Source of the DNA: Luteibacter sp.
Lineage (GTDB): Bacteria; Pseudomonadota; Gammaproteobacteria; Xanthomonadales; Rhodanobacteraceae
Direction: 5' to 3'
DNA length: 64,000 nucleotides
Assembly: GCF_009912395.1 (NCBI RefSeq)
Contig: NZ_WNDO01000001.1
Span: forward strand, 372,001-436,000
In this document: positions 38,338-42,194 of the stretch, in pieces
Layout of the letters: the number at the start of each line of letters is the position of its first letter
Position numbering within the stretch: position 1 is the stretch's first letter
Notes under the pieces: generated by a model
What the model was told of the DNA's origin: nothing
Database searches by the model: none
What the model saw: the letters and a program-made list of their open reading frames with translations, nothing else
Made by a program: the position numbers and the translations under genes

Positions 38338-38430
38338 TGCGGATGGCTTCGTGGCGGGCTCGTTCGCGGCGCCCGGATGCGCCGTACGCTGAGGCCGCCT
38401 TGTAGGAATCGCCGATGCGATCCGTTTCAC

Positions 38431-38513
38431 CTGTAGGAGCGCGCTTGCGCGCGATCCGCGGCAGCGGCAATCTGGCCCGCTACGCGGGATCGCGCGCAAG
38501 CGCGCTCCTACAG
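38431..38513. repeat. GTAG-type REP pair with 35-40 bp loop
   Basis: CTGTAGGAGCGCGCTTGCGC and its reverse complement bracket a loop with CTGGCCCGCTACGCGGG. It lies between the convergent DUF3300 and zwf genes. Part of the loop recurs as a decayed copy at 52555-52600. Confidence 0.9.
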
Positions 38514-38534
38514 GGCACTGTGGGATGCCATACG

Positions 38535-38586: not shown

Positions 38587-40371
38587 TTACTTGCCGCGTG
38601 TGCGGCTCGTCGTCGTACGTTTGCGGGCGGCGGTCTTCTTGACTGCCGTTTTCTTCGCTGCAGCCTTGCGCGCCGGGGCCTTCTTCGTCACGACCGCGGC
38701 GACAACCTTCTTGGCGGCCGCGCGCTTCTTCGCCGTCTTCTTTGCCGTGGCGCGCTTCTTCGTCGCCGGTGCCGCCGGCTGGGCCGATGCATCCGTCTTC
38801 GAACGCGAGGTCTTGCGACCGACCGGCTCGTTGGACGAATGCAGCGGACGCCACGAACGGCCGCCCATCGCGAGCAGCGTATCGGACGAGGCCGGACCCG
38901 CACTGCCGGAGGCATAGTTGGGGAAGTCGGCCGGCGTGCGCTGCGCCCAGTCGTCGAGCACCGGCTGCACCGCGCGCCAGCAGGCTTCGACCATGTCGGC
39001 ACGCTGGAACAGCGTTGCGTCGCCGGTCATGCAATCGTAGAGCAGCGTTTCGTAGCCCACGGCCGGTTCGGCGCGGAACCAGTCGGCATACTTGAAGTCC
39101 ATGCGTACCGGCGCGAGTTCCACGCGCGGACCGGGGCGCTTCACGTCGAACTGCAACGAGATGCCTTCATCCGGCTGGATCTGCAACACCAGCCAGTCCG
39201 GACCGAACGCGTCCATGCCCGTGCCGCGGAACGGGGCGAACGGCGCGGACTTGAAGCGGATCGCGATCTCAGTGGTGCGGCGACCCATGTGCTTGCCGGT
39301 GCGCAGGTAGAACGGCACGCCGGACCAGCGCCAGGTGTCGATGGAGAGCTTCATCGCCACGAAGGTCTCGGTGACCGAGTCCGGCGCCACGTCCGGCTCG
39401 TCGCGATAGGCGCGCGCCAGCTCGCCGTTCACCGCGCCCGGGCCGTACTGACCACGCACGGCATCTTCCGGAAGAATCGGGCGAATCGCTTCGATCGTCT
39501 CCGCCTTGCGGGTACGCACGGCTTCGGCGTCGAACGAGGTCGGCGGCTCCATCGCTACCATCGCCAGCAGCTGGAACAGGTGGTTGGGCACCATGTCGCG
39601 CATCGCGCCGGTCTGTTCGTAGAACGAGCCGCGACGCTCCACGCCCACCGTCTCCGCGACGGTAATCTGCACGTGGTCGATGCGGTCGCGGTTCCAGATC
39701 GGCTCGAACAGGCCGTTGGCGAAACGGAAGGCCATGATGTTCTGCACCGTTTCCTTACCCAGGAAATGGTCGATGCGGTAGATCTGGTCTTCGCGAAGCA
39801 CCTTGAGGATGCGTTCGTTGAGCGCGTGGGCCGAGGCGAGATCGTGGCCGAACGGCTTCTCGATGATCACGCGACGCCAATAGCGGCCCTCGGGGCCGCC
39901 GTCGTCCACGAGATCCGCGTCGCGCAGCTTCTCGATCACGTCGCCGAAGAAACGTTCCGGCGTGGCGAGGTAGAACAGCACGTTGCCCTGGGTACCACGC
40001 TTGCGATCGATGTCGCGCAGGCGGGTGGCGAGGCTCTGGAACGCGGAGGTGTCGTCGAAGTCGCCCGCGTGGTAACTCATTTGCGAACTGAGCCAGCCCC
40101 AGGCGTCCTCGTCGAGCTTGCCGCCACCGTTGGCGACATAACGCTCAAGCGCGGTGTGCAGGTTCTTGCGCCAGGCGTTATCACTCATCTTGCCGTGGTT
40201 GAAACCGACGACGGCGAAGTTGTCGGACAACAGGCCGGTGCGGCGCATGTTGTACAGCGCGGGCACGACGAGGCGGCTGGTGAGGTCGCCGGCGGCGCCG
40301 AAGATCACGACGGTACACGGATCGGCCGGATGAGCCCGCGAGCTGGCTCGCTTCGGTTGGGCTTGGCTCAT
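38587..40371 (-). CDS. zwf: Glucose-6-phosphate dehydrogenase with histone-H1-like C-terminal tail
   Basis: 594 residues, about 100 more than the usual 490. The NADP-binding motif GAAGDLTSR is at residues 25-33 and the substrate site [13 protein letters not shown] is conserved; the dehydrogenase part runs to about residue 505 ([12 protein letters not shown]). It oxidises glucose 6-phosphate to 6-phosphogluconolactone with NADP, the entry to the pentose-phosphate and Entner-Doudoroff routes. Residues 518-594 are a Lys/Ala-rich tail of KKxA-type repeats with about 19 Lys, 9 Arg and one Asp, like histone H1 or AlgP C-termini. The ATG has AAGGAG upstream and overlaps the GH15 stop (ATGA). Confidence 0.95.
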
Positions 40372-42194
40372 GCACTAACTCCTTGGGGAACAGAGGATTC
40401 GGGGGTGGAGTGGACATCCGCCGTCGCACTGCTGCCACGCGCCAGGCTATAGGCCGCGTTGACCAGCGCGACATGCGAAAAGGCCTGCGGGAAGTTACCC
40501 AGCAGACGCTTCGAATGCGGATCGTACTCCTCCGCGAGCAATCCGAGGTCATTGGCGAGGCCGATCAGGCGCGAGAACAGCTCGCGCGCATCGGCCATGC
40601 GCCCCTGTTGCACATAGTTTTCCACCAGCCAGAAGCTGCACGGCAGGAACTGACCCTCGCCCGGCGGCAGGCCGTCCACCCCGCTGCGCGTGTCGTAGCG
40701 AAGCACGAAACTATCGACGAGCAGATCCTCTTCCACGGCCTTCACCGTGGCGACGATGCGCGGATCGTCCGCCGGCAGGAAATCGGTGAGGGTGACCAGC
40801 AGCAGGCTGGCATCCATCTCGGTGGAACCATAGGCCTGGGTGAAGCAGCCACGCTTCGGGTCCACGCCCTTGGCGAGGATGTCGGCCTTGATCTCGTCGG
40901 CGATAGTCTGCCAGCGCTTGGCCAGGTGCGGATCGCGGCCACTGAAGTCCTGCTCGGCCGCGCGCTGGAAAGCGAGCCAGGCCATGACCTTCGAATGGAC
41001 GAAGTGCTGCGATTCGCCACGAATTTCCCAGATGCCCTCGTCGGGCTTGCGCCAGATGCTGGCGAGATGGTCGAGGAAGACCGACTGCACCTCGTCGGAA
41101 TCCGAAGACAACTCCACGCCGTGCTTCACGGCATGCGAGAACGCGCCAACGAGTTCGCCGAAGATGTCGAGCTGGAACTGCGCCGAGGCCGCGTTACCGA
41201 CACGAACGGGCCGGGCCCCTTCGTAACCGGACAGCCAGGGCAGTTCGTATTCCTCCAGGCGACGCTCGCCCGCCAGGCCGTAGAGCACCTGCAACTGATC
41301 TGGGGAGCCCGCCACCGCGCGGCGTACCCAGTCGCGCCAGGCGCTGGCTTCCTCGTGGTAGCCGGCATTGACCAGCGCGGAAAGGACGAAGGTGGCGTCG
41401 CGCGCCCAGCAGTAGCGGTAATCCCAGTTGCGTTCGCCGCCCAACTGTTCGGGCAAGGACGTGGTGGGCGCCGCGACGATGCCACCGGTGGGCAGGTAGC
41501 TCAGGCCCTTCAGCACCACCAGCGAGCGGCGGACGATATCGTTCCACTCGCCGACCTCCATGCAACGGCCGGACCAGTCTTCCCAGTACGCGAGGGATTT
41601 CTCCAGCGCTGCGACCGGGTCGATGGCGTCGGGAGGCGGCAGGTGCGACGGTCCCCAGGCCAGCACGAAGGGCACGGTCTCCCCGGCCGAGACGGCAAAG
41701 CGGGCGATGCTGTGCATGCCCTCGCCTTCCACGGCCACCGGGCTGCGCACCACGACGAGGTCGGGACCGGCCACCGCGGTCAGGGTCTGCTCGTCGACGC
41801 GGCTCACCCAAGGTACGGCGTTGCCGTAGTCGAAGCGCAGGGTGAATATCGTCTGGAAATCCACGCGACCTTCGAGGCCCTCGACGATGCGTGTCACGCC
41901 GACCTGCTCGCCCGCGAAGGGCATGAAGTCGATCACCCGGGCGCGTCCAGTGGCGGTGCGCCATTCGGTTTCGAGCACCAGGCTGCCGTCGATGTACTGG
42001 CGGGTGGAGGTCGCCTCGGGGTCTGAGGGCGCGAGTCGCCAGTAACCGTTGCTTTTGTCGCCAAGCAGGGCGGCGAAGCAGGCGGCGGAATCGAAGCGCG
42101 GCAGGCAGAGCCAGTCGATCGAGCCGTCACGGGATACCAGGGCCGCGCTCCGGCAATTGCCGAGCATCGCGTAATCTTCGATCCGGGAAGCCAT
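40368..42194 (-). CDS. GH15 family glucoamylase/trehalase-like enzyme
   Basis: 608 residues, no signal peptide, so cytoplasmic. A beta-sandwich N-domain starts with [20 protein letters not shown] (the hallmark of bacterial GH15 proteins), and the (alpha/alpha)6 domain has [18 protein letters not shown], a catalytic Glu in [12 protein letters not shown] and the second in GLLAEEYDP. Known relatives hydrolyse trehalose, malto-oligosaccharides or dextrin to glucose; the substrate cannot be decided here. Translation is coupled to zwf by ATGA, suggesting that released glucose, once phosphorylated, enters the oxidative route. Confidence 0.93.

Follow-up and report, generated by a model that had tools for sequence, protein, structure and literature searches.

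Lysine- and alanine-rich polycation tails of the histone H1 type are known in bacteria on nucleoid proteins, on granule proteins and on enzymes acting on nucleic acids. The TopA of Streptomyces has reportedly, judging from a title, also been studied for a lysine-rich tail. The closest described systems are the C-terminal domains of AlgP and PhaF from Pseudomonas, in which a Lys/Ala-rich polycation is joined to another domain and, in AlgP, is predicted to be disordered. The accessible part of one study reports DNA binding by a fragment of the AlgP tail (PMC9239181), and in the accessible part of another the low-complexity regions of proteins with DNA-binding terms are enriched in lysine (PMC6821194). 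The Hc2 and bacterial H1-like families (PF07382, NF038052, NF038053) have a similar composition but are free-standing proteins. Among glucose-6-phosphate dehydrogenases (G6PDH), the nearest comparison is Pseudomonas putida, which has three isozymes, one of them, G6PDH-B, with a histidine (H68) at the cofactor-discriminating place (accessible part of PMC8546961).

We describe a polycation tail of this type on a G6PDH, Zwf, encoded in a stretch of 64,000 nucleotides of Luteibacter sp. DNA, called here the window. The tail of AlgP is built of KPAA repeats, while that of Zwf is built of KKxA, AAKK and ARK units with few prolines, and its carrier, unlike AlgP and PhaF, is a metabolic dehydrogenase. 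Tails of this type are known, and G6PDH is an ordinary enzyme; a G6PDH with a lysine-rich tail was not found in open-licence papers. The open-licence literature on Luteibacter G6PDH, or on G6PDH in connection with the nucleoid, moonlighting or DNA binding, contained nothing on such a tail as judged from the listed entries, and lysine-rich disordered nucleoid tails in general were also not found in open-licence papers.

The enzyme and its tail

The features of the locus are as follows.

40368..42194, minus strand: GH15 / trehalase-like gene, directly upstream of zwf, with a 4-base overlap
38587-40371, minus strand: Zwf reading frame, 594 amino acids, ATG start
38842..40371, minus strand: dehydrogenase core, residues 1-510, from Pfam, TIGR00871, motifs and AlphaFold2
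38752..38841, minus strand: proximal tail, residues 511-540 (30 residues), linker-like
38587..38751, minus strand: distal polycation, residues 541-594, and stop codon
38532..38567, no strand assigned: inverted repeat with 16-nt arms just past the zwf stop, terminator-like

Zwf consists of a complete G6PDH core and a C-terminal tail. The full-length model TIGR00871 matches residues 18-508 with 589.7 bits (cut-off 400.6), and Pfam places G6PD_N at 22-211 and G6PD_C at 213-508, so the enzyme models stop at residue 508. The motif RIDHFLGKE begins at residue 199 and MVPNHLF at 260; R199, D201, H202, K206, N263 and H264 are invariant in 51 aligned sequences. We take RIDH[YF]LGKE to be the catalytic motif, and the histidine of the N-H motif is presumably functional in G6PDH. 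The AlphaFold2 model from 51 sequences (mean pLDDT 83.8) has a confident core (pTM 0.80), and the top solved structure by E-value is the G6PDH of Synechocystis with OpcA (9emm_B, TM 0.91 by target length).

The 84 residues of the tail (511-594) include 19 Lys, 9 Arg, one Asp and one Glu, compared with 15 Lys, 46 Arg, 41 Asp and 27 Glu in the 510 residues of the core. From the core composition 10.0 Lys and Arg would be expected and 28 are present (binomial P = 2.5e-7); the corresponding probability of two or fewer acidic residues is 5.8e-4. Third-position GC is 0.82 in the tail and 0.865 in the core. Residues 513-594 have pLDDT below 50, and the tail is predicted to be disordered. When all six frames of the window were scanned for K/A-rich stretches (50 residues with at least 11 Lys, at least 8 Ala and at most 3 acidic residues), it was the sole match. 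The Hc2 and H1-like models of Pfam and NCBIfam do not match Zwf at E 0.001, and the resemblance to these proteins is compositional; a match of the tail to a valine--tRNA ligase model is likewise of composition type only (23.8 bits, cut-off 1783).

The sequence-only reading had described an H1- or AlgP-like tail following a complete dehydrogenase, and both parts of this description agree with the domain limits and the Lys/Ala/Arg composition given above. Its segment 38587-38820 is indeed codons 518-594 with the stop, and contains 19 Lys, 9 Arg, one Asp and no Glu. An artefact of frame or assembly is ruled out, since 25 distinct proteins have the tail as an uninterrupted, in-frame extension.

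Distribution and origin of the tail

A tailed zwf orthologue is present in 22 of the 23 genomes of the genus, with 82-100% identity, and all 22 Luteibacter orthologues have the tail; for one genome (G016) the tail was taken from the locus L006, which has matching coordinates. The 23rd genome, which is 80% complete, gave a single match of 33 bits. The survey of the family covered 197 genomes, 19 of them Luteibacter. The same type of zwf was found there in four genomes outside the genus at 58-70% identity, the next matches having at most 46%. Three of these four proteins extend 83, 67 and 95 residues past the matched core as a tail, and the fourth, L108, is tailless.

A wider set was formed by the best 80 of at least 586 homologue-encoding stretches, comprising 5 from Luteibacter, all tailed, and 75 others. 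None of these 75 has a K/A tail, and 74 of them have their C-terminus no more than 15 residues from the matched core. Most are labelled as Alphaproteobacteria or Proteobacteria, and some as Acidobacteria and Verrucomicrobia. In the phylum search (398 genomes, 293 matched, at most three candidates scored per genome), none of the best matches listed outside the Luteibacter genome itself ran past query residue 520 without an internal stop, it being understood that such a search would miss a tail too different from the query to be aligned; this is also where the P. putida enzymes differ from the present one. For the sequences examined, a widespread Zwf trait is thus ruled out, and the earlier remark that the tail is unusual for this enzyme was correct. 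The suggestion to look for it across Xanthomonadales must be narrowed: the tail belongs to one zwf type in some Rhodanobacteraceae and not to Xanthomonadales at large. The remaining one of the 75, the zwf of Rhodospirillales bacterium URHD0017 (L023:4953-7331), has a different kind of C-terminal extension, in which 273 in-frame residues resemble, as judged by eye, a HAD-type hydrolase.

In a quick tree of 105 sequences (midpoint root, some long branches flagged), the 25 distinct tailed proteins group in a single clade with SH-aLRT 99 amid tailless relatives, and the tailless L108 is outside it. The tail was therefore likely gained once. The simplest reading of the distribution is that a zwf type whose carriers here are mainly Alphaproteobacteria was acquired by Rhodanobacteraceae, horizontally as we infer, and that this gene would then have gained, a single time, a 3' extension encoding a disordered Lys/Ala/Arg polycation.

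Other tail carriers and the putative target

It is important to consider which other proteins of the same genome have such tails. Besides Zwf, they were found on topoisomerase I, RNase R, a MetJ-like frame and two H1-like proteins.

L131:82-1728 (own genome C53): DNA topoisomerase I, K/A-rich tail, named from its C-terminal part
L132:1411-3090 (own genome C1): RNase R, K/A-rich tail, named from its C-terminal part
L118:1309-2091 (own genome C12): free-standing Hc2-family histone-like protein, 260 amino acids, 74.9 bits (cut-off 40)
L129:1267-1902 (own genome C45): MetJ-like frame and K/A stretch; the C-terminal half is Pfam MetJ, the rest was assigned by eye

The names of RNase R and topoisomerase I are based on Pfam domains and TIGR00358 above their cut-offs, the full-length NCBIfam models being below theirs. 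The second H1-like protein (386 amino acids) scores 24.4 bits with Hc2, under the cut-off of 40. The final part of the 260-residue Hc2-family protein is not K/A-rich. An in-frame TGA breaks the MetJ-like frame; past it, without a change of frame, lies a long K/A-rich stretch with its own ATG. The gene may be broken, the sequence may contain an error, or the stretch may be an H1-like protein of its own. Two other weak matches of the Zwf tail in the genome, C22 (E 0.33) and C23 (E 2.5), have internal stops and no such tail when read out.

The carriers were searched with an H1-like protein of the genome as query and with a profile built from seven tails. The list is neither independent nor complete, because five of the six proteins recovered by the profile were themselves in it, only the Hc2-family protein being new, and because the H1-like query did not recover Zwf and found topoisomerase I and RNase R weakly (E 0.047 and 0.165). 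All five other carriers found are nucleic-acid proteins or H1-like, which is our chief ground for proposing that the Zwf tail targets nucleic acid. Such company favours nucleic acid as an association and not as proof. Topoisomerase I and RNase R are, like Zwf, enzymes with a C-terminal Lys/Ala tail in the same genome, but they act on nucleic acid and Zwf does not. The retention of the tail in relatives suggests an enzyme fixed to a negatively charged polymer, be it DNA, RNA or some other. Our preferred reading, to which we give a probability of roughly 0.5, is that the tail is a polycation, defined by its composition, that would tether this isozyme to nucleic acid.

The main rival to nucleic acid is polyphosphate, as chains or granules, to which the tail could bind and so place or regulate the isozyme in starvation. 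Two ppk1 genes are located in the genome about 5 kb apart (C13:55566-64771), and RNase R, which has a tail similar to that of Zwf, is in E. coli, together with YihI, a protein that binds polyphosphate through lysine-rich sequences (accessible part of PMC12345225). AlgP with its H1-like tail localises to polyphosphate granules (accessible part of PMC9239181). However, ppk1 is common (present in 7 of 14 control genomes), no direct link between the tailed zwf and polyphosphate was found in the data examined, and the tails on topoisomerase and the MetJ-like frame point to DNA. We consider polyphosphate an unlikely target on this balance. Anchoring to PHA granules was rejected, the only sign of it being a match to part of the PhaC_N model (115-171 of 173, 24.8 bits, cut-off 23.7).

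Charge, cofactor and gene neighbourhood

The length of the tail ranges from 67 to 157 residues in the 25 proteins, and over 231 Luteibacter pairs its mean identity is 51%, compared with 91% for the core. The composition is much more uniform: Lys and Arg make up 0.25-0.35 of every tail (mean 0.32), and the net charge is from +10 to +43. The acidic residues total 76, and the first 30 positions of the tails account for 71 of them; the other five belong to L106 (four, all distal, in a tail with a net charge of only +10) and to L107 (one). Beyond tail residue 30, the 22 Luteibacter tails, with distal parts of 40-127 residues each, contain 548 Lys and Arg and no acidic residue among 1473. Ten close tail pairs, which overlap, show 15 differences between Lys and Arg and none between Lys and Glu.

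These values were compared with a simulation in which substitutions, free of selection, indels and slippage, carried the window tail to the matching identity. The simulated means are 0.216 for K+R, 0.064 for D+E and 0.152 for net charge per residue; those observed are 0.320, 0.034 and 0.286. K+R and net charge per residue are each outside the simulated 5-95% range in 23 of the 24 other tails, although these are not 24 independent tests, the tails being related by descent. The net charge per residue exceeds all 500 runs in 13 tails. Whole-tail D+E is outside the range in just five of the 24; a clear depletion of acidic residues is confined to the distal part. The best reading is that the tail may be defined by charge composition, with its sequence free to drift. 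The sequence-only reading had looked to close relatives for conservation, and had set a tail varying highly in both length and charge against a role. The tail is present in them and its charge composition is kept, while its length and sequence vary widely, which amounts to half of what had been counted against a role.

It might be supposed that the tail is a non-adaptive low-complexity extension, maintained by repeat slippage and loose constraint. This would account for the variable length and sequence and for the weak departure of whole-tail D+E, and 12 of the 25 tails contain short tandem repeats in their DNA, usually with a 15-bp unit in about 2-4 copies. However, the other 13 have no tandem repeat at the threshold used, and the alanine codons are mixed (304 GCG, 203 GCC, 85 GCA, 67 GCT). 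The acid-free distal parts and the charge values that depart from the simulation also speak against this explanation, which is weakened by the charge constraint, and we regard it as disfavoured and improbable. Polycations are general ligands of polyanions, so the tail could instead act within the enzyme (oligomer state, kinetics, solubility) or on lipids or protein partners, for instance an acidic one; OpcA is a protein partner of a cyanobacterial G6PD, according to the title of 9emm. This is improbable for a tail that is predicted to be disordered, is not conserved in sequence, and has few hydrophobic or aromatic anchors (18 of the 1473 distal residues are any of FYWILMCHNQ).

On the preferred reading, the tail would act through its bulk charge and not its exact sequence: after a linker-like part of about 30 residues, the distal part, acid-free in Luteibacter, would bind nucleic acid non-specifically, and the enzyme, probably oligomeric and bearing several tails, would be kept on the nucleoid or on RNA. 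This would parallel the proposed action of the PhaF tail on PHA granules.

The genome has three zwf genes, and only the 38587-40371 copy encodes a tail. The products of the other two have 490 and 526 residues (493 from a later start) and end 5 and 6 residues after the matched core. As a correction to the earlier reading, the tailed enzyme is one of three isozymes. The position contacting the NADP 2'-phosphate is His59 and not the Arg of NADP-type G6PDH, a rule of cofactor choice taken from the accessible part of PMC8546961, where the P. putida isozyme with His at this place lacks cofactor specificity. Of the 25 tailed proteins, 23 have histidine at this site and the remaining two have Gly and Ile. 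Both paralogues of the same genome have Arg, as do 33 of 76 untailed proteins of the same zwf type, of which 18 have His. Because of His59, the tailed Zwf is predicted to be probably dual-cofactor or NAD-leaning, and this makes the previously proposed link to NADPH production doubtful. A single gain of an H1-like tail may have produced a putative nucleoid- or RNA-bound dehydrogenase, one that would make NAD(P)H at the chromosome or whose activity would follow the occupancy of the tail; we put this forward tentatively. A tail probably gained once and kept on one of three isozymes provides a natural experiment, with tailed and tailless enzymes in one cell, and the question of whether a polycation tail alone can relocate or regulate a metabolic enzyme becomes directly testable.

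The GH15-type gene is found immediately upstream of the tailed zwf in all 27 Luteibacter loci (some of them duplicates) and in two of the three tailed genera outside Luteibacter; in the third, L107, none was seen within the 1.5 kb examined. The two genes may form an operon. Among the 75 other homologues, from the best 80 of at least 586, a GH15 relative is near zwf in the flanking DNA of 13, and in the two of these 13 that were read out a probable 6-phosphogluconolactonase gene, named by eye, is located between them. This linkage and the intervening gene hint at a module leading from trehalose or glucose to 6-phosphogluconate.

The terminator-like site past the zwf stop, on the minus strand at 38553-38541, is weak, two such sites occurring in the 601 bases scanned with 0.7 expected by chance. 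Between zwf and a DUF3300 gene there is a further inverted repeat at 38430-38514, with 38-nt arms that are 89% complementary and separated by 9 nt, which resembles a REP-type element.
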